From Beijerinckia sp. 28-YEA-48 (GTDB lineage Bacteria; Pseudomonadota; Alphaproteobacteria; Rhizobiales; Beijerinckiaceae): 64,000 nt of DNA. Every line of letters starts with the position of its first letter. The stretch's first letter is position 1. The position numbers were made by a program, and so were the translations under genes. The notes under the pieces are model-generated. The model was given only the letters and a program-made list of their open reading frames with translations, did no database searches and was not told the DNA's origin. Positions 21,618-35,950 of the stretch are shown one piece after another. The stretch lies in the NCBI RefSeq assembly GCF_900104955.1, contig NZ_FNSI01000001.1, positions 3,444,001-3,508,000 on the forward strand, in the 5' to 3' direction.

Positions 21618-22586
21618 CTAAAGGTTGCGGAACGAATCCGTAGCTTCCACGAGCGCGGCCAGGATGCCGGGCTCGCTCGTGGCGTGGCCGGCATCGGGCA
21701 CGATGCGCAGGAACGACTTGGGCCACGCCTTGTGCAGTTCGAACGCCGTGCGCGCCGGCGTCACCACGTCGTAGCGGCCCTGCACGATGACGCCGGGTAT
21801 ATCGGCGATCACCGGCATGTTGGCGATCAGCTCGCCCTCGGCCAAAAAAGCCTTGTTGACGAAGTAATGCGCCTCGATGCGCGACAGGGCGATCTCGCCG
21901 CGTGTCGCTTGGCCGGTGCGCGGCGTGCGTGGCTTCAAGGTCAGCAATTCGCCTTCCCAGGCACACCAGGTGCGTGCGGCCTCCAAACGCGCCACCGTGT
22001 CGTCGCCCAATAGGCGGCGGTGATAGGCCGCGATGATGTCGTCGCGCTCGGCTTCGGGGATCGGCGCGATGAAACGTTCCCAGCCTTCCGGAAACAAAGA
22101 CGACGCGCCCTCGCGATAGAGCCAGTCGAATTCCAGCTGGCGGGCGGTGAAGGTGCCGCGCAACACCAGCGCCCGCACGCGTTCGCGATGCGCCTGCGCA
22201 TAAGCCAGCGCCAGGGCCACACCCCAGGAGCCCCCCAGGATCAGCCAGTTGTCGACATCGAGCAGCAGGCGCAGACGCTCAATATCAGCGACGAGATGTT
22301 GCGTGGTGTTGGCCTCGACCGCCGCATGCGGCGTCGAGCGGCCACAGCCGCGCTGGTCGAAGAGAACGATACGGTAGACCTGCGGATCGAACAGGCGTCG
22401 ATAATCCGGGTGGCAGCCGCCGCCCGGCCCGCCGTGCAGGAACAGGGCCGGCTTGCCATCGGGATTGCCGCAGACTTCCCAGTAGAGGCTATGGCCGTCT
22501 CCGACCTCGAGCATGCCACTGTCGTAGGGCTGAATCGAAGGATAAAAACTGGCCGTGCGGTGGCCAATGTGCTCGTCAACACTCAT
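21618..22586 (-). CDS. pip: Proline iminopeptidase-like alpha/beta hydrolase
   Basis: A 322-residue cytoplasmic enzyme. It has the oxyanion-loop HGGPGGG near residue 50, the nucleophile elbow GGSWG near residue 118, and the later acid/base pair in QGRYDVVTP and DAGHA near the C-terminus. The pattern ...FDQRGCGRSTPHA is typical of the Pip (S33) family, which cleaves N-terminal proline; relatives also hydrolyse amides and esters. It lies 64 bases after eutA copy 1 on the same strand and may be read with it, although a housekeeping role is equally possible. The spacer carries two perfect 18-base direct repeats (22604-22639). Confidence 0.88.
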   Translation of the reverse strand: MSVDEHIGHRTASFYPSIQPYDSGMLEVGDGHSLYWEVCGNPDGKPALFLHGGPGGGCHPDYRRLFDPQVYRIVLFDQRGCGRSTPHAAVEANTTQHLVADIERLRLLLDVDNWLILGGSWGVALALAYAQAHRERVRALVLRGTFTARQLEFDWLYREGASSLFPEGWERFIAPIPEAERDDIIAAYHRRLLGDDTVARLEAARTWCAWEGELLTLKPRTPRTGQATRGEIALSRIEAHYFVNKAFLAEGELIANMPVIADIPGVIVQGRYDVVTPARTAFELHKAWPKSFLRIVPDAGHATSEPGILAALVEATDSFRNL

Positions 22587-22650: not shown

Positions 22651-24243
22651 TCAGACTACGGCTTTCGCCCCTAGATTGCCAAGCGACGGATCGCCCAAAG
22701 CGGTATTCGCCCGGCCCAAGGCCGCCGATGTCGGGAAAACCAGCGATTTGATGACGACAGGCACGGCGCCCGAGGTTTCCAGCATGGCGCCGATATCGAC
22801 GAAATCGAATTCCTTGAGCTGAATGCCGTCGATGGATACGACCGGATTGGCGAGTTTGCACTCCTCGCGCAGGTGAATGCCGACGAGGCCGCCGATATCG
22901 CCCTCGCCGACCAGCACCAGCGGATGACCGTGGCCGATCACCGCGCCCAATCCATCGATGACGGCATGGCAATAATCATCGAGCCGCCGGAAGGTGGCCG
23001 AGCCCTGCCAGCGATAACAGAGCGCCACCGCCCGGTCGCCTTCGTGCAGATCGAGGCGGCGCAGCGCCGTTTTGATCGCGGCTGCGATCGCCGCCCGATC
23101 GAGCTCTTCGTCGTCCAGCGGCAGAACCGGCGCGATCACCGGCAGGTTGCGCAGCGGCAATGTCGTGAGCGGGGCGACGAAGATCGTCGCGCCACTGACC
23201 TGGATCGTATATTGCGACGCGCCCACGACCGTGGCGCGGATCCCCTGCTCCGGCTTTTCGACCGGGACGCCCCAGGCCGCGACGTGCCGGACGATCGCCT
23301 GCGCGAGACTGGGGCCAAGATCGCCGAAACCGCCGTTTTGCAGGCCATACACATATTCGGACACACCACCGGAAAAGGTGATGCAGGCTGGCGGCACATT
23401 GTTGCGCAGCGGCTCCAGGCGCAGCAGGGCCGCGGTTTCAGGCGACAGGTTCGGTTGCGTCATGGCTTCGAACAGGCGCTTGGCCATGATCTCGACCATG
23501 GTGGCGCGCTGCTCTTCCGACAACACGCTTCCCACGTCCACGGCGAAGCCAGCCTCCTCGGCAAAGCGGCGACCAGCTTCTTCGAGACGAACCACCTTGC
23601 CCTGCGCGTCGAAAGAGACGATGCGCGCGCCAACGTCGATGGCTGTCATCTCGACCACTTCACCAGCTGCACATACGGCGATCTTCGACGTGCCACCGCC
23701 GATATCGACATTCATCACCCGACGGTTCTCGCGGATCGACCGCGCGGCGGCGCCAGAGCCAAAAGCCGCCAAGGTCGTTTCCAACGCGTCGCCAGCACTC
23801 ACCGACACAAACTTGCCGGCCTGCGCGGCAAACAAATCGCCGATGGCGCGCGCATTGGCGCGGCGCACGGCGACACCCGTCAGGATCAGAGCGCCGGTGT
23901 CGATAGCCGCCGGATCGATGGCGGCCGCCTCATATTGACGATCGATAAAGGCGCCGAGTTTGGCGGCGTCGATCGTCATGTCGTCGGCATAGGGTGTCAG
24001 CAGAACATCGGACTCATGGAACACCTCGCGCTTGGACACGAGATAGCGATTGTCGAGCCGTTCCAGCACGAGCCGCGAGAACACCAGATGCGAGGTGGAG
24101 GAGCCTATATCGACACCGACGCTGACGAGGCGGATCTCATCTTCTTCTTCCAGGGAACGGCGGACGCTGGAAAAGAAAGTCCGCCCGCCCTGGGCCTCGT
24201 CATCATCGCTCATCTGTTCTGTCCGGCCCTTGCTTTCGACCAT
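22651..24243 (-). CDS. EutA-family ASKHA ATPase, copy 1
   Basis: A 530-residue protein. After an acidic N-terminus it reads VSVGVDIGSSTSHLVFSRL (phosphate-1 motif of the actin/Hsp70 fold), ILTGVAVRRANARAI, MNVDIGGGTSKIAV (phosphate-2), ITFSGGVSEYVYG (adenosine loop), VVGASQYTIQVSG, LPLRNLPVI and at the end VPVVIKSLVFP. The same order of motifs is found in EutA, the chaperone that swaps damaged cobalamin out of ethanolamine ammonia-lyase. No eutB or eutC is in the window. It follows bicupin 1 on the same strand after a 98-base spacer with a strong hairpin, and pip follows. Function in this setting is not known; reactivation or metal loading of another enzyme is my inference. Confidence 0.85.
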   Translation of the reverse strand: MVESKGRTEQMSDDDEAQGGRTFFSSVRRSLEEEDEIRLVSVGVDIGSSTSHLVFSRLVLERLDNRYLVSKREVFHESDVLLTPYADDMTIDAAKLGAFIDRQYEAAAIDPAAIDTGALILTGVAVRRANARAIGDLFAAQAGKFVSVSAGDALETTLAAFGSGAAARSIRENRRVMNVDIGGGTSKIAVCAAGEVVEMTAIDVGARIVSFDAQGKVVRLEEAGRRFAEEAGFAVDVGSVLSEEQRATMVEIMAKRLFEAMTQPNLSPETAALLRLEPLRNNVPPACITFSGGVSEYVYGLQNGGFGDLGPSLAQAIVRHVAAWGVPVEKPEQGIRATVVGASQYTIQVSGATIFVAPLTTLPLRNLPVIAPVLPLDDEELDRAAIAAAIKTALRRLDLHEGDRAVALCYRWQGSATFRRLDDYCHAVIDGLGAVIGHGHPLVLVGEGDIGGLVGIHLREECKLANPVVSIDGIQLKEFDFVDIGAMLETSGAVPVVIKSLVFPTSAALGRANTALGDPSLGNLGAKAVV

Positions 24244-24305
24244 AGCGTTTCACAGCTCGACGGAATCGTCGAGCGCCATGAAGACGCGTCCAAATAAGAG
24301 GATCT

Positions 24306-24342
24306 GAGCAAAATCACGTTTCTACCGAAACGTGATTTGCTC
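24306..24342 (-). terminator. Hairpin after bicupin 1
   Basis: GAGCAAAATCACGTTT and AAACGTGATTTGCTC form a stem around a CTACCG loop, with a perfect 10-base core at 24312-24321/24328-24337. It starts at the stop codon of the minus-strand bicupin and precedes eutA copy 1. No long T run follows, so it may be an attenuator or mRNA stabiliser. A related hairpin is at 50587-50622. Confidence 0.55.
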
Positions 24343-25580
24343 TACACAACGGTGTCGCGCTTTTCGGCATCCGTTTTTTCGGTGTTCGGCCGCACATACC
24401 ATTTCGGATCCATACGGCTCGGCACGCCATTGCTGGCGAGCGTTGCCTCATATTCCGCACGCAGATGCGGGTCTTCCTGCCAATAGGGAATGGCCGTGCC
24501 GCCCTTATCGAGATCGATGGCGGTGTAATCGGTGTGCTTAGCGCCTGGGGCTCCTGGATCGCGGCCAGGATTGTGCGGGCCAAACCAGGCCGACAGTCGG
24601 AAGTCATCCTTCGAGACGCTGAAGTGCTGATGGTACCAGCGTGCGCCACCAGGCGCCGCCGTCACCATGCCGATCGGTTCGTAGTCCAGCCGCCGCACTT
24701 CGTCGGCATGACCATCCTGCCATGGCGTCGGCCCGCAACGTTCCGGCCACGAATAGGTGTAGCCCTTGCCTTTCAGGCAGATCAGGATGGCGGCCGAGGT
24801 ATGGGCGTGCGCTTTCGAATAACGGCCGTTCTCATGCTGGCCGATCCAGTAATAGAACTGGTTGTTGGTCATGAACGGTTCGACGCGGCGATAGCCGACG
24901 GAGCGGCGGTTATCGAGCGGCAGGTCGCAGTTAATGACATCGGGAATGAAGTTGGTGCGGCGCATGGCCAGGCCGCGCACCGGATCCGGCTCGATATCGT
25001 CCTTGGCCTTGAAGAAGTCGTCGGCGCCGTTGAAACGATCGCGGAAGACGAAGGGATTGTTGAACACCGCCTCGACATTGTTGAGCATGTTCATGACATT
25101 CGGCGCTGTCGTGCCGCCCAGCAGCAGAGCGCCGCCCGACGTCGCGTTGACGACGCGATACCAGGCATTCATCGGGATCGAAAACATCGAGCCCTTCTGC
25201 CATTCGAAGACATGCTTCTTGGTGTCGCCTTCCTGCCAAACCTCGGTGGTGCCACGCCCTTCGACGACGAGGAAGATTTCCTCGTACATGTGTTTCTCAG
25301 GGTTCAGCGCGCCGCCCGGCGGCACTTCCACCACATAGCAGCCCCATTTGGTCTCGGTGCCGTAAAGTTGAATGAAATGGCCTTTGCCGCCGCGCCGCTT
25401 CCACGGCATCAGCGGCAGGTTCTGCACTTTCGAAATGCCGATGTCGCGGAACACCGGGATCCCTTCCGCCTCCATCCAGGCATCATAAGGGGTCGGTTGT
25501 TTCTGGAACTCGCCGAAGCCCGCCTTCTTGACGCCCGACGGCTCGTGCCAATGAACACCGTCTTTGGAATCGTGTGGCAT
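24342..25580 (-). CDS. Bicupin protein 1
   Basis: A 412-residue protein of two cupin barrels. Domain 1 (about 60-165) has VVEVPPGGALNPEKHMYEEIFLV-type sequence with one His and a Glu pair. Domain 2 (about 235-345) has the stronger metal motif KAHAH followed by a second strand WYHQHF. A 372-residue paralogue lies at 28782-29900. Bicupins of this sort include ring-cleaving dioxygenases such as gentisate 1,2-dioxygenase and metal-dependent isomerases or decarboxylases. The ATG at 25580 has an ideal AGGAGG five bases upstream. It is the first gene of a minus-strand run bicupin - EutA-like - pip, divergent from the mirrored run on the other strand. Substrate unknown. Confidence 0.8.
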   Translation of the reverse strand: MPHDSKDGVHWHEPSGVKKAGFGEFQKQPTPYDAWMEAEGIPVFRDIGISKVQNLPLMPWKRRGGKGHFIQLYGTETKWGCYVVEVPPGGALNPEKHMYEEIFLVVEGRGTTEVWQEGDTKKHVFEWQKGSMFSIPMNAWYRVVNATSGGALLLGGTTAPNVMNMLNNVEAVFNNPFVFRDRFNGADDFFKAKDDIEPDPVRGLAMRRTNFIPDVINCDLPLDNRRSVGYRRVEPFMTNNQFYYWIGQHENGRYSKAHAHTSAAILICLKGKGYTYSWPERCGPTPWQDGHADEVRRLDYEPIGMVTAAPGGARWYHQHFSVSKDDFRLSAWFGPHNPGRDPGAPGAKHTDYTAIDLDKGGTAIPYWQEDPHLRAEYEATLASNGVPSRMDPKWYVRPNTEKTDAEKRDTVV

Positions 25581-25773
25581 GGGTTCCTCCTGCGTAAGAA
25601 TGTCCTCGGCTCGTTACGGCGGCCGGTCTCTGTCGCGCTAGATCGACCATGGGGCGAGCCGTGTCAACAAGCAGCGACCAGTTGACGAAAACATGATACC
25701 GCGCGAGGAAGGCATTAAGATGAAACGCGCACAGCAAGCTGAATTATAATGCTTGTGCCGACCGAGGAACGAC
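25581..25773. promoter_or_regulatory. Divergent promoter region of the mirrored bicupin/EutA module
   Basis: The 193 bases between the two oppositely directed arms must hold both promoters. Ribosome binding sites are clear on both sides (AGGAGG before 25580, GAGGA before 25774). I see no convincing operator palindrome by eye. Confidence 0.5.
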
Positions 25774-27552
25774 ATGGGAGACAACGACAAGAAGCCTGCA
25801 GCGCATAGCCTCGCTGAGCATGCCATGGGACAAGCCTATGACCATGAGCACGACGCTGATGCCGATCACGAGCACGACGATTTCGAGCTCGATGGCCCGC
25901 TGGAAGAAAATCCGCTCTGGATTCAGGACAATGTCCATCTGACCAGCGTCGGCATCGATATCGGCTCGTCCGGCACGCAGGTAATCTTCTCGCGCATTCA
26001 CCTGCGCCGCCTCGCCGAGGATCTGACCAGCCGCTATTATGTCGTCTCGCGTGAGACACTTTACCTCTCGCCCGTGGCGCTGACGCCCTATGCCAGCGAG
26101 ACGCGCATTGATGACGCCAAGCTGCGCGAAATCATCACAGACGCCTACCAGCAGGCCGGCATCGCCGCTGCCGACGTGGACACCGGCGCCGTCATCCTCA
26201 CGGGTGAGGCGCTGCGGCGCGAGAACGCCCAGGCGATCTCAGCGCTATTGTCACAGCAGGGCGGCGAGTTCGTCTGCGCCACCGCCGGCCACCACATGGA
26301 ATCGATGCTGGCCGCCTATGGCTCGGGCGCGGCGCAGGCTTCCCTCGATCTTGGCAAGCGCGTACTCAACATCGACATCGGCGGCGGCACGACCAAGATC
26401 GGCGTGCTCGAAGGCGGCAAGGTGATCTCAACCGCTGCCGTCCATATCGGCGGCCGTCTGCAGGTGACCGAGGGCGGCCGGATCGTCCGTCTTGATCCTG
26501 CCGGGCGCACCCATGCGCGGCGCGCCGGCTTCGACTGGGCGCTTGGCGCTGCGGCCAGCGACGCCGACCTCGATCAGGTGGCCGATGGCATGGCCGAGAC
26601 CCTGATCGCGGCGCTGACGGCACGGCCGCTCCCGCACGATATCGAACATCTCTACCTGACCGACCCGATCGTCGATTTCGGCGATGTGGCGGGCGTAATG
26701 TTCTCCGGCGGCGTCGGCGAATATGTCTATGATCGCGAACAACGCGATTTCCAGGACATGGGCCGCAGGCTCGGCACAGCCATCCGCCAACGTATCGCCG
26801 CTGGGCGTCTGCCCTGGCCGCTGTTGCCGGCCCATGAATGTATCCGCGCCACGGCGCTCGGCGCCTCCGAATACAGCGTCCAGCTCTCCGGCAATACGAG
26901 CTATATCTCCAGCCCTGGCGCGCTGCTGCCACGGCGCAACCTGCAGGTGGTGCAACCGCCGTTCGAACTCGGCGAGGAGGTCGATTCCGCAGCACTCGCG
27001 CGGGCGATTACCGGGCATCTGAAAGCCTTCGATCTCGAAGACATCACCCAGGACGTGGCCTTGGCGCTGCGTTGGACCGGCGCGCCGGCCTATGAACGCA
27101 TCCTCGGTTTTGCCCAAGGTGTCGCGCTGGCACTGGCTGACCGGATCGCCGCTGGCCGTCCGCTCTATCTCATGCTCGATGGCGACGTCGCCCAAACACT
27201 TGGCGCCGTCTTGCGCGAGGATTGCGGCATCGCCAACGAGATATTGGTTATCGACGGCGTGATGCTGGCGGACTTCGACTATATCGATCTCGGCAAGCTC
27301 CGTATCCCCTCCTATACGGTTCCGGTGACCATCAAATCGCTGGTGTTCAGCGAGGACCCGCGCGGTCCCCGCGCCCGCGAAATCATCCATCACCGCGAAC
27401 ACGACGCCGGTCACCACCATCACGGCCATGCGCACGACCATCACCATGGTCACGGGCATCATGATCACGGACACACACATAGCCATGATCATGCACATGA
27501 TCATACACATGGCCATGATCATCATCACCACGACCACCATCGCAAAGGCTGA
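25774..27552 (+). CDS. EutA-family ASKHA ATPase, copy 2, with His-rich tail
   Basis: A 592-residue protein from the ATG at 25774 (GAGGA five bases upstream; the frame is open from a TTG at 25753). It shares all motifs with copy 1: VGIDIGSSGTQVIFSR, ILTGEALRRENAQAI, LNIDIGGGTTKIGV, MFSGGVGEYVYD, ALGASEYSVQLSG and VTIKSLVFS. Unlike copy 1 and ordinary EutA it has metal-binding-looking ends: an N-terminal patch HEHDADADHEHDD, and a C-terminal tail of 54 residues (27388-27549) of which 30 are His, mostly HxH and HDH. Such tails store or deliver Ni, Zn or Co in HypB, SlyD and CobW-type proteins. The ABC ATPase and bicupin 2 follow on the same strand. I infer a metal- or cofactor-loading ATPase; this has not been shown for the family. 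Confidence 0.85.
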   Translation: MGDNDKKPAAHSLAEHAMGQAYDHEHDADADHEHDDFELDGPLEENPLWIQDNVHLTSVGIDIGSSGTQVIFSRIHLRRLAEDLTSRYYVVSRETLYLSPVALTPYASETRIDDAKLREIITDAYQQAGIAAADVDTGAVILTGEALRRENAQAISALLSQQGGEFVCATAGHHMESMLAAYGSGAAQASLDLGKRVLNIDIGGGTTKIGVLEGGKVISTAAVHIGGRLQVTEGGRIVRLDPAGRTHARRAGFDWALGAAASDADLDQVADGMAETLIAALTARPLPHDIEHLYLTDPIVDFGDVAGVMFSGGVGEYVYDREQRDFQDMGRRLGTAIRQRIAAGRLPWPLLPAHECIRATALGASEYSVQLSGNTSYISSPGALLPRRNLQVVQPPFELGEEVDSAALARAITGHLKAFDLEDITQDVALALRWTGAPAYERILGFAQGVALALADRIAAGRPLYLMLDGDVAQTLGAVLREDCGIANEILVIDGVMLADFDYIDLGKLRIPSYTVPVTIKSLVFSEDPRGPRAREIIHHREHDAGHHHHGHAHDHHHGHGHHDHGHTHSHDHAHDHTHGHDHHHHDHHRKG

Positions 27553-27614
27553 TCTGCCGCCGGCTTGCGCCGGCCGCGGACCGAGCGCATAAAACGGACC
27601 GGAGGGAGGACACG

Positions 27615-28736
27615 GTGCTCAGCGTCAGACGGCTCAATACGGAGTATAAAACCCCGAAGGGGCCACCCGTGCGCGCTGCTCAAGACGTGACCTTCGATGT
27701 GCCGAAGGGCAAATTCTTCACGCTGCTAGGGCCTTCCGGCTGCGGCAAGACCACCACCTTGCGCTCCATCGCCGGGCTCGAACGGCCGACGTCAGGCGAG
27801 ATCGAGGTCAACGGCAAACTGGTCTATGCCTCCCAGGGCAATATCTTCGTGGCGCCCAACAAGCGCAACTTCGGCATGGTGTTCCAGTCCTATGCCATCT
27901 GGCCGCATATGAGCGTCTTCGCCAATGCCGCCTTTCCGCTGCAGGTGCGCCGTGACCGGCCTTCGAAACGGCAGATCCAAGACAAGGTGATGGGCGTGCT
28001 GCAGGCGGTGGCGCTCGATCATCTGGCCGAGCGGGACGCCACCAAGCTCTCCGGCGGCCAGCAGCAGCGCCTGGCCCTGGCACGCGCCCTGGTGATGGAA
28101 CCGGAACTGCTGCTGCTCGACGAGCCGCTGTCCAACCTCGATGCCAAATTGCGCGATCGCATGCGCTTCGAGCTAAAGCGCATCCAGCGCGACAATGGCC
28201 TGACGACCATCTATGTCACCCACGACCAGGGCGAAGCGCTGGCGCTGTCCCATGAAATCGCCGTGATGAACGAAGGCCGCATCGTCCAGATCGGCTCGCC
28301 GCACGACATCTACAACCGTCCGCGCACGAAATTCGTCGCCGACTTCATCGGCACCACCAATTTCCTCGAAGGTCGCGTTAAGGGGCTCGATCAGGCCACA
28401 CGGCGCTGGCTGATCGAAACGCCGGCCGGCGATATTCTGGTGAAGAGCGAGGCCGAATTGTCAGCCGGCGCAAAAGCCTCGATCTCGATCCGCCCCGAAG
28501 ATATCGAATTGTCGGAACAGCCCTTCGGCGCGGCCGCCGCCAACAAGCTTGCCGGCACCGCCGACGCTACGGTGTTTCTCGGCGATTTCCTCGACGTTCA
28601 AGTGCGGGTGGGCGAAGCCATGCTGCAATCGCGCTCGCACCCCTCGCTGCACGCGCCCGATGGCGCACCGCTCTATATCCGCATCGACCCGGAGAAATGT
28701 ATCGCTATCGCTGACACCCTCAGCACACACGCCTAG
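27615..28736 (+). CDS. ABC transporter ATP-binding protein, PotA/FbpC type
   Basis: A 373-residue ATPase starting at GTG 27615, four bases after GGAGGGAGGA. Walker A GPSGCGKTTTL, Q-loop VFQSYAIWPHMSV, signature LSGGQQQRLALAR, Walker B LLLLDEPLSNLD and the H-loop YVTHDQ are intact. The last 120 residues are a TOBE-type regulatory domain (ISIRPEDIELSE). Members energise uptake of polyamines, iron(III) or sugars. No permease or binding protein of that type is adjacent, so it is an orphan here, unless it works with a permease coded elsewhere. It sits between EutA copy 2 and bicupin 2, in the same direction and closely spaced. Confidence 0.88.
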   Translation: MLSVRRLNTEYKTPKGPPVRAAQDVTFDVPKGKFFTLLGPSGCGKTTTLRSIAGLERPTSGEIEVNGKLVYASQGNIFVAPNKRNFGMVFQSYAIWPHMSVFANAAFPLQVRRDRPSKRQIQDKVMGVLQAVALDHLAERDATKLSGGQQQRLALARALVMEPELLLLDEPLSNLDAKLRDRMRFELKRIQRDNGLTTIYVTHDQGEALALSHEIAVMNEGRIVQIGSPHDIYNRPRTKFVADFIGTTNFLEGRVKGLDQATRRWLIETPAGDILVKSEAELSAGAKASISIRPEDIELSEQPFGAAAANKLAGTADATVFLGDFLDVQVRVGEAMLQSRSHPSLHAPDGAPLYIRIDPEKCIAIADTLSTHA

Positions 28737-28781
28737 GATTTATTTTAACCCAACACTCAACCAAGAAAGACGGAGAAGGAA

Positions 28782-29900
28782 ATGGCCAAGGACGCAATCG
28801 TATCCGACGATCTCGCCAAGAAATTCGCGACCGAGAAGGATACGCCCTATCTGCGCTGGGTGCGCGAAGAAGGGCTCGATATCATCGGCGCCCATTATGT
28901 CCGCAATCTGCGCACGGTCGAGCTGAAACCCTGGGCGCGGCGTGGCGGCAAAGGCATCTTCATCAATCACGAGGCCTCGCGCACCTCCAACGATTGCTAT
29001 GTCTGTGAGATCGCGCCGGGCAAGAAGCTGGAACCGCAGCGCCAGCTGTTCGAAGAGATGATCCTGGTGCTCGACGGACGCGGCTCGACCAGCGTGTGGA
29101 ACGATGCCGGCAAGAAGATCACCTTCGAGTGGAAGGCCGGCGCTCTCTTCGCCATCCCGCTGAACGCCTGGCATCAGCACTTCAACGGCTCGGGCCAGGA
29201 GCCGGCGCGCTTCGTCTCGGTCACCAATGCGCCGCCGGTGATCAATCTCTATGAAGACATCGATTTCGTCTTCAACACCAAGCATGACTTCAAGAGCCGC
29301 TTCGCCGGCGAGCCTGATTACTTCAGCGCCAAGGGCGAGCAGAAGGGTCTGTTGCTCGAAACCAATTTCGTACCCGATGCGGTGAACCTGCCGCTGATCT
29401 CGGCCAAGGAGCGCGGCGCTGGCGGTGGCCACATCCGTTTCAACATGGCCAAGGGCTCGATGAACAGCCACATCTCGCAATTCCCCATCGGCACCTACAA
29501 GAAAGGCCACTGCCACGGCCCAGGCGCGCATGTGATCATCCTGTCGGGCGAAGGCTATTCGCTGATGTGGCCCGAAGGCGAAGAACCGCGCCGCTACGAT
29601 TGGGAAGTCGGCACCATGATCGTGCCGCCGAACCTGTGGTTCCACCAGCATTTCAACACCGGCACGACGCCGGCGCGCTATCTGGCCTTCAAGCACGAGG
29701 TGGTTTCGATCCGTAACGGCCAGGGCGTGCCCAAGGCTTGGATCAGCCGGCGCATCGGCGGCGATCAGATCGACTATGCCGACGAAACGCCGCTCGTGCG
29801 CGATATGTTCACGCAGGAATTGTCGAAGAACGGCCTGACGCCAAAGATGGACGAGGCCTACAAGACCGAGCTGGAAACGCTGCCGCCAAAGGCCGCTTGA
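28782..29900 (+). CDS. Bicupin protein 2
   Basis: A 372-residue paralogue of the 24342-25580 protein: both have PW.RRGGKG near residue 50, an EE-I-LV--GRG-T-VW strand pair, and FAIP/FSIP-LNAW. In domain 1 the metal His of the other copy is replaced (PQRQLFEE), so domain 1 may have lost metal. Domain 2 keeps KGHCHGPGAH and LWFHQHFNTG, which look like a complete metal site. GGAGAAGGAA directly precedes the ATG. It ends the plus-strand arm EutA copy 2 - ABC ATPase - bicupin 2, and a strong hairpin follows its stop. Likely a metal-dependent dioxygenase, isomerase or decarboxylase acting on the cluster's substrate; not more precise than that. Confidence 0.8.
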   Translation: MAKDAIVSDDLAKKFATEKDTPYLRWVREEGLDIIGAHYVRNLRTVELKPWARRGGKGIFINHEASRTSNDCYVCEIAPGKKLEPQRQLFEEMILVLDGRGSTSVWNDAGKKITFEWKAGALFAIPLNAWHQHFNGSGQEPARFVSVTNAPPVINLYEDIDFVFNTKHDFKSRFAGEPDYFSAKGEQKGLLLETNFVPDAVNLPLISAKERGAGGGHIRFNMAKGSMNSHISQFPIGTYKKGHCHGPGAHVIILSGEGYSLMWPEGEEPRRYDWEVGTMIVPPNLWFHQHFNTGTTPARYLAFKHEVVSIRNGQGVPKAWISRRIGGDQIDYADETPLVRDMFTQELSKNGLTPKMDEAYKTELETLPPKAA

Positions 29901-31148: not shown

Positions 31149-32153
31149 TCAATAGAACTGATCGAAATGAAGCTGTCTCACAGGCACTTTCGCCTTGATG
31201 AGCATTTTCATCACCGCCTGCGACATGGCCGGCGGGCCGGCGAAATAGACCTCGAAATTGGCCAGGTCCTCGCCAAACAGCGTTTCGGCAATATCGTGCA
31301 CGAAGCCGGTGTGGCCGCTCCAGCCTTCGGCGCCTTCCGGCATGGAGATCGCCGGATGGTAATGAATGCGCGAGCCATAGCCGTCGAGCACGCCGAGGAT
31401 GCCCTCGCCGCAAATGTCCTTGGGGGTGCGACCGCCATAGATGAATTGCACGTTGCGGCCCTGCAAAGCAGCACTTGCCGCAGCACCTCGGGCGATCGAA
31501 ATCATCGGCGACAGACCAGAACCACCAGCGAGGCAAAGAATGTCGCGCGGCGCGTCTTCGCGCAGGTAAGCCATGCCATAGGGACCGTCGATGGTGATCG
31601 TGTCGCCGATCTTCACCTTCTCGAACAGATTGGTTGTCGCCTCACCACCCGGCACGAGCTTGATCTGGAAATGCCACTCGTCACCCAGGTTGGTGACGTT
31701 GCTCATCGAATAGGCACGGGCACCTTCGACACCGGGCAAGCCGAGCAGCGCATATTGGCCAGGAAGAAACAGATTGGATTGCTTCAGGTTGAAGCGGAAT
31801 TCTCTGATGTCGTGGGTCAGATCATCGATGCCCGCCAGAACCGCTTCGGTTTTGCGCGGCAAATGCTGGCTTTTGTAATGATCGCGCAGATTGACCTTGA
31901 TGGTGCAATCGCCTTTCGGTTGCGCCTGGCAACCGAGAAAACGGTTCCGCGCAATGTCGCGTTCGTTGAGGCCCGGCGGATTGGCGCGCAGGTGCTCAAC
32001 CTCACCCGCCAGCAGCTCAAACCGGCAATTACCACAGGAGCCGACATTACATTCGTAGGGAAAGCCTAGTCCTTCGCGCAGGGCGGCACGAGCCAAGGTG
32101 TCATTTTCGCAAACATATTCGATATTCGCATTGCTGATCGTTATCTTGGGCAT
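31149..32153 (-). CDS. Oxygenase reductase: 2Fe-2S ferredoxin fused to FAD/NAD(P)H domain
   Basis: A 334-residue protein. Residues 1-90 are a plant-type ferredoxin with cysteines in PYECNVGSCGNCRFELL and FLGCQA. Residues 95-195 bind FAD (ARAYSMSN is the RxYS motif), and residues 200-330 bind NAD(P)H (LAGGSGLSPMISIAR, VYFAGPPAM). This layout is that of reductases feeding aromatic-ring oxygenases, such as those of benzoate dioxygenase. It is the last gene of the minus-strand operon ferredoxin - GTPase - IclR regulator - reductase, so it should pass electrons from NAD(P)H to the Rieske ferredoxin and on to the divergent oxygenase. Confidence 0.9.
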   Translation of the reverse strand: MPKITISNANIEYVCENDTLARAALREGLGFPYECNVGSCGNCRFELLAGEVEHLRANPPGLNERDIARNRFLGCQAQPKGDCTIKVNLRDHYKSQHLPRKTEAVLAGIDDLTHDIREFRFNLKQSNLFLPGQYALLGLPGVEGARAYSMSNVTNLGDEWHFQIKLVPGGEATTNLFEKVKIGDTITIDGPYGMAYLREDAPRDILCLAGGSGLSPMISIARGAAASAALQGRNVQFIYGGRTPKDICGEGILGVLDGYGSRIHYHPAISMPEGAEGWSGHTGFVHDIAETLFGEDLANFEVYFAGPPAMSQAVMKMLIKAKVPVRQLHFDQFY

Positions 32154-32187: not shown

Positions 32188-33033
32188 TTAATAAGCCGCT
32201 GGGGCCTTGTATCCCAGGCGCGACGAAATCGTGTGCGCCGTATCTAGCAGAAGCGGCAGAAAGCGCGCCAGCACTTCATCATCCATGCGCTGGCGCGGCC
32301 CGGCGATGCCAACAGCAGCGACGACACGGCTCTCAGCATCCCTGATGGGGGCCGCCAGCGAGCGCATTCCCGGTTCACATTGTTCGTCCTCGACCGCATA
32401 GCCGATCCGCCGGATCTCGGCCAGCGCCGCGCGCAGATGCGTTGGATCGACGTCGGTCTGTGGCGTCCGCTGCGTCAGGCCGCCAGCGACGATCGCCTCG
32501 ACCTTGGGTTCCGACATAAAGGCCAGCATGGCCCGCCCTTCCGAGGCGCAGAAGGCCGGCTTGCGCTCGCCCAGATTGGCCCGCATGCGGATCGCCTGGC
32601 TGCTCTCCAGATCGTAAACATAGATAATCTCGGCCCCATCCAGCAAAGCCAGGTGGACGGTTTCGTTGGTGGCTTCGCGCAAAGCGAAAATATGCTGCCG
32701 CGCCTCGGTCGACACATTCATGCGCTGGCGCACCAGCGCGCCGAGCCCAAACAGCGCGATGCCGAGACGGTACTTCTCGTTCTCGCTGTTTTGCTCCAGC
32801 ATGCCTTCCGCCACCAGCGTCGAGGCCAACCGATAGACCGTGCTCTTGGCGACACCGAGCTTGCGCGACAGGGCCGTGACGCCGATTTCGGATTCGCCTT
32901 CCGAGAAGGCCTTCAACAACCGCATCGACATGGCGACCGACGACAGCCGTTGCGGTTCGCGGCGCGCGGCTTTTGTCGACGAGGATTGCGACGCGTCGTC
33001 GATACGAACATCAGTCACACGAACGTCAGTCAT
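32188..33033 (-). CDS. IclR-family transcriptional regulator
   Basis: About 281 residues from the ATG at 33033. That start overlaps the stop of the CobW gene by eight bases (ATGACTGA), which supports it over the open reading from 33132. A helix-turn-helix at about 45-90 (IGVTALSRKLGVAKSTVYRL) is followed by the IclR effector domain (HLALLDGAEIIYVYDLES, ending GIAGPRQRM). IclR regulators respond to aromatic acids and related metabolites. It lies inside the operon it may control; a likely operator is the ACGGAAC-GCT-GTTCCGT palindrome at 34528-34544 between ferredoxin and oxygenase. Confidence 0.9.
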   Translation of the reverse strand: MTDVRVTDVRIDDASQSSSTKAARREPQRLSSVAMSMRLLKAFSEGESEIGVTALSRKLGVAKSTVYRLASTLVAEGMLEQNSENEKYRLGIALFGLGALVRQRMNVSTEARQHIFALREATNETVHLALLDGAEIIYVYDLESSQAIRMRANLGERKPAFCASEGRAMLAFMSEPKVEAIVAGGLTQRTPQTDVDPTHLRAALAEIRRIGYAVEDEQCEPGMRSLAAPIRDAESRVVAAVGIAGPRQRMDDEVLARFLPLLLDTAHTISSRLGYKAPAAY

Positions 33034-34072
33034 GGGCGCGCACTCCGATGGCGTTTTCGGTGACGACCGCGGTAAGGCCGAGACGGGCGAGAAAGTCAGT
33101 GGCGATGGCGCTGGCCGGCGCGCCTTGCGCAATGAATGTCATGCCCACCGGGCGATCGTCGGTTCGAGCGCCCAAGGCTGAACGCGCGATGGCCTCGCCC
33201 GGCATGGTTTGAAGGATTTCGATTGCGCCCTCGGCGCCGCTGCGGGCTGTTCCCTTGACGCGCAGGATCGCGGCCTCGTGGCGGGCAAGCGTCGCCTGCA
33301 GGGCATCGGCCAGCGCTTCATAGGCGATCGGCCCGAATAGCGGCGCGAAGGCGCTCGTCACATCGTTCGAATGATGCGCGTGATCGTGGTGATCATGATC
33401 GTGATGTCCATCGTGGCAGGCCGGCGTGCAAACGTGGCCGTGCGCCAGAGCATTCCCGAGAGCGGCGACGATGGCGGCTGCCGGCGCAGAAGCGCCACCC
33501 GAAGCCAGGATCGCAGCTTGCGGCCGCACGGATCGGATTGCCGCGCGGGCGCGCTCCATCTCCTGGACGGTCGCAATATCGGTTTTGGTCAGCACAATGG
33601 CGCCGGCATGCGCCAGCTGACTCTCGCATTCGGGATGGCGCAACAGCTGCGCGGGGCCACGGCGGGCATCGAATGTGGTGACGACGCCGGCGACATCATA
33701 ACGCTCGGCGATCAGAGCGTGGCTTTGCAGGGATGCAATGATCGGCTGTGGATCGGCGATGCCGGTGGTTTCGATCAACACCCACGAAAAGGGCGCAATC
33801 TCGCGATGCAGGCGCTGCCAGAACAGCCGTTCGAGCGTCGCATTGAGATCTTCACTCGCCGCGCAACAGGCGCAGCCGTTTTCCAGCAGCAGCGGCGCAT
33901 CGCTCGATGTCTCGACCAGCCGATCGTCGAGCCCGACTTCACCCAGCTCGTTGACGATCACCATGGCGCCTGAAAATTCCGGCGCCCGCAGCCATTGCGC
34001 CAGCAGACTGGTTTTGCCGCTGCCGAGGAAGCCGGTGAGGATGAGGATTGGAACCTTTATGCGCTGCGCCAT
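33026..34072 (-). CDS. CobW/COG0523-family GTPase with His-rich linker
   Basis: A 348-residue protein of the G3E class. The P-loop is GFLGSGKTSL near residue 16, the metal-binding motif is ENGCACCAA near residue 66, and the family glutamate region IVNELGEVGLDD precedes it. Between the GTPase and the C-terminal CobW domain lies a linker with 11 His and two Cys (HVCTPACHDGHHDHDHHDH). These proteins move Zn, Co or Fe to client metalloproteins. Its place inside an operon for a Rieske oxygenase system suggests an iron- or cobalt-related job for the enzymes coded around it, but COG0523 proteins are also tied to zinc limitation. GGAGCGGCG precedes the ATG. Confidence 0.9.
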   Translation of the reverse strand: MAQRIKVPILILTGFLGSGKTSLLAQWLRAPEFSGAMVIVNELGEVGLDDRLVETSSDAPLLLENGCACCAASEDLNATLERLFWQRLHREIAPFSWVLIETTGIADPQPIIASLQSHALIAERYDVAGVVTTFDARRGPAQLLRHPECESQLAHAGAIVLTKTDIATVQEMERARAAIRSVRPQAAILASGGASAPAAAIVAALGNALAHGHVCTPACHDGHHDHDHHDHAHHSNDVTSAFAPLFGPIAYEALADALQATLARHEAAILRVKGTARSGAEGAIEILQTMPGEAIARSALGARTDDRPVGMTFIAQGAPASAIATDFLARLGLTAVVTENAIGVRAHD

Positions 34073-34544: not shown

Positions 34545-34663
34545 ATAAGAGAACACACCTAAGTAACAGGCCCCGGCACCCCGGTCAACCGACAAATTTG
34601 CTAGAATGGGCCACGCTCAACCGCCCAAGGCGGATCAAAAGAAACAGCTTGGAGGACGCTAAC

Positions 34664-35950
34664 GTGCTGAAAAAAGAACAAAATGACTACCTCTGCCAAA
34701 CCGGGCCAGGCACGCCCATGGGCAATTTCTTCCGCTGCTATTGGCAGCCGGCCCTGTTGAGCGAGGAGCTGCCGGAGCCCGATTGCCCGCCCGTCCGCGT
34801 CAAATTGCTGGGTGAACGCCTGCTCGCTTTCCGCGACAGCGAGGGCAGGCTTGGCCTGATCGACGAGTTCTGCGCCCATCGCGGCGTCTCGCTGTGGTTT
34901 GGCCGTAACGAAGAGTGCGGCCTGCGCTGCCCCTATCACGGCTGGAAGTATGACGTGAACGGCCAGTGCACCGAGGTCCCCTCGGAGCCGGCCGAATCCG
35001 GCTATGCCAAGAAGATCAAGCTGAAGTCCTATCCCTTGATCGAACAGGGCGGCGTGTTGTGGACCTATATGGGCCCGCCGGAAGCGCAGCCGCCGCTGCC
35101 GGAATATGAATTCTCGACCGTGCCGCTGAACCAGACGTTCATGACCAAGCGTATCCAGGAGTGCAACTGGCTACAGGCGATGGAAGGCGGCATCGATTCC
35201 AGCCACGTCTCCTTCCTGCATCGCGGCGATCTGCACAACGATCCGCTGTTCAAGGGCGCCGGCGGCAACAAATACAATATGCAGGACCTGTCGCCGGTCT
35301 TTGAAGTGGTGGAGAGCGATGGCGGCCTGCTCATCGGCGCTCGCCGCAATGCCGAGGACGATCAATATTACTGGCGCATCACGCCTTGGGTGATGCCCAA
35401 TTACTCCGGCGTGCCGCCGCGCGGCGACCATCCGATGCATGGGCATTTCTGGGTGCCGATCGACGACGAGACGTGCTGGGCCTGGTCTTACGACTATCAT
35501 CCGACCCGCGCGCTCACCGATGCTGAAGTCGCGGCGATGAAAGACGGCAAGGGCGTGCATGTGAAATACATCCCGGGCACCTATCGCCCGCTCGCCAACA
35601 AGGACAACGACTATCTGATGGACCGCGCCGGCCAGAAGGCCGGCCGCACCTTCAGCGGCGTCGAGGGCATCGGCATCCAGGATGCGTCGTTGCAGGAAAG
35701 CATGGGGCCGATCTGCGATCGCACCAAGGAAAACCTGGTCGGCACCGACAACGGCATCATCATGGCCCGTCATCGTCTGTTGCGCGCCTCGCGCGCATTC
35801 AACGAAAAGGGCATCGCACCGCCGGGCGTCAATCCGGAGCATCACAAGGTGCGGCAGGCGGCGCTGCTGTTGAAGCGTGACGTCCAATATAAGGACGGCG
35901 CCAAGGAAGCGTTGAAAGCCAAGAAGGGCGTGCGCCAGACCTCGGTCTGA
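34664..35950 (+). CDS. Rieske non-heme iron oxygenase, phthalate 4,5-dioxygenase-like
   Basis: About 428 residues from GTG 34664 (GGAGG eight bases upstream; the frame is open to 34598). The Rieske centre is CAHRGVSLWFGR...CPYHGWKYD, and the mononuclear iron ligands are Asp-His-His in DSSHVSFLH. The opening ending in PMGNFFRCYWQPALL is that of phthalate 4,5-dioxygenase-type (class IA) oxygenases, which add O2 to, or demethylate, aromatic acids. Class IA enzymes normally take electrons from one reductase without a ferredoxin; here a Rieske ferredoxin and a reductase are encoded divergently, and a class IA reductase lies at 62064-63023. The substrate is not shown. Confidence 0.9.
   Translation: MLKKEQNDYLCQTGPGTPMGNFFRCYWQPALLSEELPEPDCPPVRVKLLGERLLAFRDSEGRLGLIDEFCAHRGVSLWFGRNEECGLRCPYHGWKYDVNGQCTEVPSEPAESGYAKKIKLKSYPLIEQGGVLWTYMGPPEAQPPLPEYEFSTVPLNQTFMTKRIQECNWLQAMEGGIDSSHVSFLHRGDLHNDPLFKGAGGNKYNMQDLSPVFEVVESDGGLLIGARRNAEDDQYYWRITPWVMPNYSGVPPRGDHPMHGHFWVPIDDETCWAWSYDYHPTRALTDAEVAAMKDGKGVHVKYIPGTYRPLANKDNDYLMDRAGQKAGRTFSGVEGIGIQDASLQESMGPICDRTKENLVGTDNGIIMARHRLLRASRAFNEKGIAPPGVNPEHHKVRQAALLLKRDVQYKDGAKEALKAKKGVRQTSV

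Follow-up and report, generated by a model that had tools for sequence, protein, structure and literature searches.

In the 64,000-nucleotide stretch of Beijerinckia sp. 28-YEA-48 that we analysed (contig NZ_FNSI01000001.1, positions 3,444,001 to 3,508,000; hereafter the window), positions 22651-29900 hold a mirror-image module in which two ATPases of the EutA family stand with two proteins built of two cupin domains each (bicupins), and comparison with related loci shows that ATPase and bicupin diverged together. EutA removes damaged cobalamin (B12) from the ethanolamine ammonia-lyase EutBC, and its family has a partner-reactivating role (PMC5821096). We lean towards reading the module as an enzyme with its maintenance factor, in which the EutA-like protein would use ATP to load metal into, or to reactivate, a bicupin resembling gentisate dioxygenase. 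Genomes, loci and families outside the window are given as G, L and f numbers where they have to be told apart.

Layout of the module

The leftward arm runs from bicupin 1 to EutA1, on the same strand with a gap of about 100 bp, and the rightward arm from EutA2 through a PotA/PhnT-type ATPase to bicupin 2, according to the coordinates of the open reading frames (ORFs). A first-pass annotation of this DNA had already described two EutA-like ATPases and two bicupins arranged as mirror images, and this description held, both in the positions of the ORFs and in Pfam EutA and Cupin_2 matches above cut-offs. The parts of the module are as follows (His, histidine).

22651-24243, minus strand: EutA1, EutA-family ASKHA ATPase, 530 amino acids if translated from the first ATG (translation might also begin at an in-frame ATG, 24213); Pfam PF06277, 390 bits
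24342-25580, minus strand: bicupin 1, 412 amino acids; Cupin_2 above the Pfam cut-off; its pairing with EutA recurs in related loci
24624-24809, minus strand: putative metal site in the C-terminal cupin of bicupin 1 (H258, H260, H317, with H319), from conservation and alignment with the gentisate 1,2-dioxygenase 3bu7
25581-25773, no strand: divergent intergenic region between both arms, 193 bp by ORF coordinates
25774-27552, plus strand: EutA2, EutA-family ATPase, 592 amino acids (the mechanical ORF begins earlier, at a TTG at 25753); PF06277, 388 bits; rich in His at both ends
25774-25899, plus strand: His/Asp-rich N-terminal extension of EutA2, with 7 His among the 60 residues preceding the first ATP motif
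27370-27549, plus strand: His-rich C-terminal tail of EutA2, with 30 His in the final 60 residues
27615-28736, plus strand: PotA/PhnT-type ABC ATPase with TOBE domain, from family matches and the same position in L009 and L018
28782-29900, plus strand: bicupin 2, presumed partner of EutA2, 372 amino acids; Cupin_2 above cut-off; 34% identity to bicupin 1
29508-29651, plus strand: putative metal site in the C-terminal cupin of bicupin 2 (H243, H245, H288, with H290), from alignment with bicupin 1

EutA1 and EutA2 are 42% identical over 479 aligned positions (E 5e-114) and the two bicupins 34% identical over 376 positions (E 4e-65), which bears out the earlier view that both pairs are paralogous. 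The divergent arrangement of bicupin 1 and EutA2 was also found in L009, from the Roseiarcaceae, and in L018, from Rhizobiales 62-17, and there too the ABC ATPase gene separates EutA2 from bicupin 2. Since a sigma-70 scan of the module gave 2 sites against 1.9 expected, no promoter is claimed.

EutA occurs with bicupin or with EutB

EutBC had been taken to be absent at the first reading, and a search of the window's genome (6.43 Mb, 99.6% complete) confirmed that it has no match to EutB. The same holds for all 12 genomes, described below, that carry the bicupin (0/12, with the E. coli positive control detected). A classical EutA serving a hidden EutBC was rejected for this genome on that ground. 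The large subunit of diol/glycerol dehydratase (PF02286) was not found in the window's genome by a search that detected nothing in 14 control genomes; it was likewise not found in 11 of the 12 bicupin genomes, with a 43-position piece in G306, in a search that lacked a positive control. As to a hidden B12 partner, the searches covered EutB and PF02286, other B12 enzymes not being searched.

Among 385 genomes of the window's class, Alphaproteobacteria, we identified 30 full-length PF06277 matches in 11 genomes, and the bicupin family (membership by alignment A1 at E below 1e-60) in 12, which are exactly these 11 plus G226. This twelfth genome, 70% complete, holds a 26-bit EutA piece, below cut-off, at a contig edge 106 bp from its bicupin. 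Weak PF06277 matches, present in 294 of the 385 genomes at E up to 0.001, were not counted; they are short and mostly mid-profile, and among the matches listed they reach at most 37.5 bits, versus more than 300 for the 30 counted. The class-wide PF06277 scan scored at most four candidates per genome in the genomes checked, and a rescan of the 12 genomes in which every candidate was scored returned the same 30 matches and the G226 piece; the class-wide bicupin scan and the phylum-wide scans for EutA and bicupin scored the best few candidates per genome. The probability of such an overlap would be ~5e-23 if genomes were independent, which they are not: the 12 carriers represent five families, and for two of these, f105 and f114, a common origin of all eight carriers in the sample is possible. 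In the window's own family, three relatives in the class sample have neither EutA nor bicupin.

A phylum sample of 398 genomes contained EutA in six, namely the window's genome and five others, and in these five EutB lay beside EutA every time (5/5) and the bicupin was found in none (0/5). Taken together, the two samples give 17 distinct EutA-bearing genomes in which the partner found is EutB or bicupin, never both. EutA relatives were further found in 25 plasmid records, and the four rhizobial ones among them are the same four that hold a bicupin.

Adjacency and paired divergence of ATPase and bicupin

Across the 12 genomes, 24 of 31 EutA-like genes have a bicupin within 500 bp of the matched stretch. 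A search with EutA1 retrieved 19 loci, including ones from the betaproteobacteria Paraburkholderia, Burkholderia, Pusillimonas and Massilia, and 18 of them hold a bicupin. In 16 of these it is encoded on the same strand no more than 500 bp away, and in two it lies at greater distance (2.2 kb in L011, 2.9 kb in L012). The neighbourhood comparison that the first-pass annotation had proposed thus shows a pairing with bicupin, and without EutB, that recurs in alpha- and betaproteobacteria; neither of the findings it had named as counting against it was encountered, as no EutB was found in this genome and the pairing exists elsewhere. Two side observations concern such loci: in Massilia sp. RYN_540 a thiamine-diphosphate enzyme lies between two bicupin-EutA pairs (L016, 5434-7266), and a bicupin-EutA pair in G306 has a UbiD relative (474 bits; L080, 3196-4782) some kb upstream of it.

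The distances among EutA proteins mirror those among their bicupins. For 33 full-length pairs lying within 1500 bp, the Mantel correlation between the two distance matrices was 0.913, and none of 5000 permutations came as high (best 0.426). As the shared ancestry of the species explains part of this value, paralogous pairs were compared inside single genomes, where EutA and bicupin indicated the same relatives in 147 of 148 comparisons from six genomes (differences below 0.03 were ignored, and the comparisons are not independent). The duplicated ATPase and the duplicated metal enzyme were said at the outset to have evolved together, and the paralogue contrast agrees. Adjacency, co-occurrence and mirrored distances make a chance neighbourhood unlikely.

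The EutA-family proteins form a group apart from EutB-linked EutA

The Pfam EutA matches of EutA1 and EutA2 (390 and 388 bits, cut-off 27) cover profile positions 3-474 of 475, so both are full-length members of PF06277. Both miss the NCBIfam cut-off for the ethanolamine ammonia-lyase reactivating factor, the best model giving 325 bits for EutA1 and 317 for EutA2 versus 598. The AlphaFold model of EutA1 (predicted local distance difference test, pLDDT, 75.8; predicted template modelling score 0.60) matches actin/ASKHA folds, among them the actin-like MreB, the PPX/GppA phosphatases and the activator of 2-hydroxyglutaryl-CoA dehydratase. The ATP motifs are kept, the DxG and DIGGGT columns being common to EutB-linked and other EutA rows of a 55-row alignment.

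In a tree of these 55 rows (3 incomplete rows of 58 were omitted), 8 EutB-linked rows are split from the 47 others by a branch with support 97/99, a result to be read with a long-branch warning that applies above all to L074. EutB is present in all 8 loci of the EutB-linked rows and in 0 of the 42 other loci examined. On the same rows, K187 (Asn in 8/8 EutB-linked proteins) and A201 (Cys in 8/8) are among the residues that separate the groups. L074 itself, on a very long branch (7.87), is an EutA adjoining EutB in a genome of the window's own family (G547).

The bicupin site and its likely chemistry

The model of bicupin 1 (pLDDT 80.6) shows a two-cupin fold with matches to oxalate decarboxylase, MncA, seed vicilins and quercetinase, and its best solved profile match is auxin-binding protein 1, followed by the gentisate 1,2-dioxygenase 3bu7 (E 2e-5), the best-scoring solved oxygenase. 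In 46 aligned bicupins, the C-terminal cupin keeps H317 and H319 in all 46 and H258 and H260 in 44, while the N-terminal cupin retains H97 (40/46) and E100 (46/46). This HxH...HxH pattern, from which the usual Glu is missing, is similar to that of the 3-His ring-cleaving bicupins. PMC4019311 places the site of 3bu7 (His119, His121 and His160, with His162 nearby) in the N-terminal domain, as it does the 3-His site of salicylate dioxygenase. In our bicupins, no 3-His site was found in the N-terminal cupin and the conserved HxH...HxH lies in the C-terminal one. Curated dioxygenase families in NCBIfam did not claim them either, bicupin 2 scoring 33.6 bits versus 650 for 5-aminosalicylate dioxygenase and bicupin 1 matching no family.

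Further along in the window lie the following genes.

31149-32153: reductase, part of the oxygenase neighbourhood
32188-33132: IclR regulator, part of the oxygenase neighbourhood
33026-34072, minus strand: GTPase of the CobW type that contains a His-rich stretch and lies close to the Rieske oxygenase cluster; Pfam cobW, 131 bits
34156-34461: ferredoxin, part of the oxygenase neighbourhood
34598-35950, plus strand: Rieske oxygenase with LigXa-type C-terminal domain; relatives in L006, L007, L017, L019 and L027

The Rieske oxygenase, ferredoxin, reductase and IclR regulator suggest an oxygenase-driven catabolic island, and the first three also occur as neighbours in L006, L007 and L019. In L014 and L015, bicupin 1 is directly preceded by a molybdenum hydroxylase gene, and these two loci, like L019, L020 and L022, also hold an amidohydrolase and an HpcH/HpaI aldolase. 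The oxygenase-type neighbours together with the 3-His pattern make it likely that the bicupin is a catabolic oxygenase.

Links to metals

The ten tree rows of the EutA2 clade carry 6-8 His in the N-terminal extension (10/10) and 12-30 His in the C-terminal extension (9/10, the exception, L005, having none). The eight EutB-linked EutA have 0-1 His in the N-terminal and 0 in the C-terminal extension, EutA1-type proteins have 0-1 in each, and the remaining rows are intermediate. Of 34 loci (the window, L006, L007, L009-L027, L063-L068 and L075-L080, with L013 counted), 8 hold a CobW relative, which is His-rich in 7 of them. The nickel/cobalt transporter family NicO gave 14 matches in the 12 genomes, counted as 12 genes, of which 4 are no more than 4 kb away from an EutA-like gene, at ~40 bp in G210, G300 and G378 and at 3.3 kb in G381. 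NicO-family genes are also present in Massilia (L016) and, together with nikR, beside EutA in Phyllobacterium (L007). We favour loading over plain reactivation because of the His-rich ends and because some modules have genes for nickel/cobalt transporters or CobW nearby. Both nickel or cobalt, suggested by NicO, and Fe(II), by analogy with the 3-His enzymes, are possible client metals.

Proposed explanation and its rivals

On our proposal, the bicupins are mononuclear metal enzymes and most probably oxygenases resembling gentisate dioxygenase, whose single functional 3-His site lies in the C-terminal cupin. Each would be the client of its own EutA-family ATPase, a specific factor that, on the analogy of EutA, would bind it and be driven by ATP. 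An opening and closing cycle of the Hsp70/actin type might open the bicupin so that its metal site is filled or an oxidised or wrong metal swapped, much as EutA clears damaged cobalamin from EutBC. The His-rich ends of the EutA2 clade may hold metal for delivery, and in some lineages NicO transporters might supply it and CobW GTPases help. More tentatively, we raise the possibility, doubtful at present, that EutA-family ATPases were recruited outside B12 chemistry as ATP-powered metal-insertion or metal-exchange chaperones for mononuclear cupin enzymes, with the His-rich ends as a metal store; they would then form a class of actin/Hsp70-fold metallochaperones that evolved pair by pair with their clients.

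Several observations weigh against this explanation, in whole or in part. The number of bicupin places in the 12 genomes (75, fragments included) exceeds that of EutA-like genes (31), which speaks against a strict one-to-one relation, and G113, a 2.4-Mb genome, has 15 bicupin places, several in tandem and mostly on contig 17 (L064), versus 2 full-length EutA-like genes, so one factor may serve several bicupins. A third bicupin of the window's genome (C1:1663823-1665016) has no EutA in the 20 kb read around it, and L013 holds an EutA1 relative with no bicupin in 7 kb. Seven of the 31 EutA-like genes are without a nearby bicupin: one is the third copy in the window's genome, two (L059 and L062, the latter a 4.7-kb contig) have no recognised partner, and four (L057, L058, L060 and L061, from G210, G300, G378 and G104) lie ~80 bp downstream of a gene for a UbiD decarboxylase, called with Pfam run on L058 only. 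The client therefore need not be a bicupin, and UbiD is a possible second client of the family. On these counts, the first-pass suggestion of one ATPase for each cupin does not hold as a general rule. On the metal side, EutA1-type proteins have 0-1 His in either extension and no His tail; 8 of the 12 NicO genes, including both of the window's genome, are distant from EutA, three of the four near ones come from a single genus, and most loci have no NicO, with no match in the Sinorhizobium locus L006. The 3-His gentisate dioxygenases moreover use Fe(II) (PMC4019311), which does not suggest nickel. Overall, the first interpretation is partly supported, and an action of EutA on the bicupin is what analogy would suggest.

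Mirrored distances and operon pairing would also result from consecutive catalytic steps, and the EutA-like ATPase might itself catalyse a step of the pathway, as an ASKHA-fold kinase or through some other ATP-consuming reaction, on a small-molecule intermediate that the bicupin produces or consumes. The matches of the EutA1 model to MreB, PPX/GppA and the dehydratase activator indeed show a fold class broader than chaperones, but the match covers the whole profile of a family known to reactivate its partners (PMC5821096), and a substrate kinase would not be expected to have His-rich ends or metal genes nearby; we consider this unlikely. The four genes that follow UbiD, the fewer EutA-like genes than bicupins, which fits shared service, and the EutA1 types without a His tail would instead suit broader reactivases for damage-prone cofactor enzymes (bicupins, UbiD) that act as conformational chaperones without delivering metal. 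In three of those four UbiD loci (not L061), however, a NicO gene directly follows the EutA-like gene, the EutA2 clade is His-rich and EutA distances follow individual bicupins, and we regard this reading as rather improbable.

We judge it highly improbable that two unrelated genes merely hitch-hike on one mobile catabolic island: the module is patchy (12/385 genomes) and present on four rhizobial plasmids, but the pairing is kept in alpha- and betaproteobacteria amid different neighbours, and the distances of paralogous pairs are mirrored. We find it hardly credible that EutA1 and EutA2 act like classical EutA, on a cobalamin enzyme whose gene lies elsewhere; the full-length family match would fit, but, of the two B12 enzymes searched for, EutB was not found in any of the 12 genomes (with its control positive) and PF02286 was not found in 11 of the 12, G306 having its short piece, in that search without a positive control, and the NCBIfam EutA cut-offs are missed.

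Relation to known systems

The module proteins share with the EutA of ethanolamine ammonia-lyase (PF06277) the full-length match, the ATP motifs and a gene position beside the presumed client enzyme; they differ in that no EutB was found, in their place across the 97/99 branch, in other conserved residues, in the His-rich ends of one clade and in the bicupin as usual neighbour. The only role described for EutA, to our knowledge, is the repair of a B12 enzyme. With bicupins of the gentisate/salicylate 1,2-dioxygenase type, the module bicupins have in common two cupins, HxH...HxH without the usual Glu and, in several loci, Rieske-type neighbours, whereas their intact 3-His site is C-terminal and not N-terminal, they fall far below the NCBIfam cut-offs and an ATPase gene accompanies them. 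The bicupins oxalate decarboxylase, MncA and quercetinase are the closest solved folds of bicupin 1, yet identity in the listed fold matches is 8-14%, and we know of no dedicated ATPase for any of them. HypB, UreE and SlyD are His-rich metallochaperones, and together with the CobW GTPases they offer a parallel in having a His-rich stretch on an NTPase, with nickel/cobalt transport genes near some modules; homology of EutA2 to them was not found, Pfam and NCBIfam returning EutA, weaker actin-like families and EutJ, with no HypB or UreE.

We found no report of an EutA-bicupin pairing in the open-licence literature of PubMed Central, and subscription papers may hold one. The words EutA and cupin occur together in PMC5924519 and PMC7876524 (ectoine/compatible solutes) and in PMC3483176 (ethanolamine microcompartment), the available parts of which do not indicate the pairing. 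Riboflavin/lumichrome catabolism, which according to PMC12746152 involves a thiamin enzyme, xanthine oxidase, Rieske dioxygenase and cupin, was tried as a template and dropped, because the main text of that paper contains neither "EutA" nor "ethanolamine".

If a separate EutA clade does work with a non-B12 metal enzyme, the repair principle would extend to other cofactors, and the link to bicupins would bear on how a cupin acquires and retains its correct metal. The idea can be tested directly, since enzyme and factor are encoded side by side and can be produced jointly or separately. In such bacteria (e.g. Phyllobacterium), genes annotated as "ethanolamine ammonia-lyase reactivating factor EutA" may be unrelated to ethanolamine.

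Other copies and neighbouring genes

The third full-length EutA-like gene of the window's genome lies at C1:5681784-5683190 (L005, 7776-9356); its product lacks a His tail, and its N-terminal extension contains 8 His. This copy, the third bicupin and the His-rich ends of EutA2 did not figure in the first-pass annotation. It adjoins genes for an NAD-dependent formate dehydrogenase, and no bicupin was found in the 18 kb read around it. A uvrC-like gene, named by eye only, lies on its opposite side. In the window, a prolyl-aminopeptidase-type hydrolase gene (21618-22586), above its NCBIfam cut-off, comes after EutA1, and relatives of it were found in 16 of the 24 EutA-bearing loci that were clustered.

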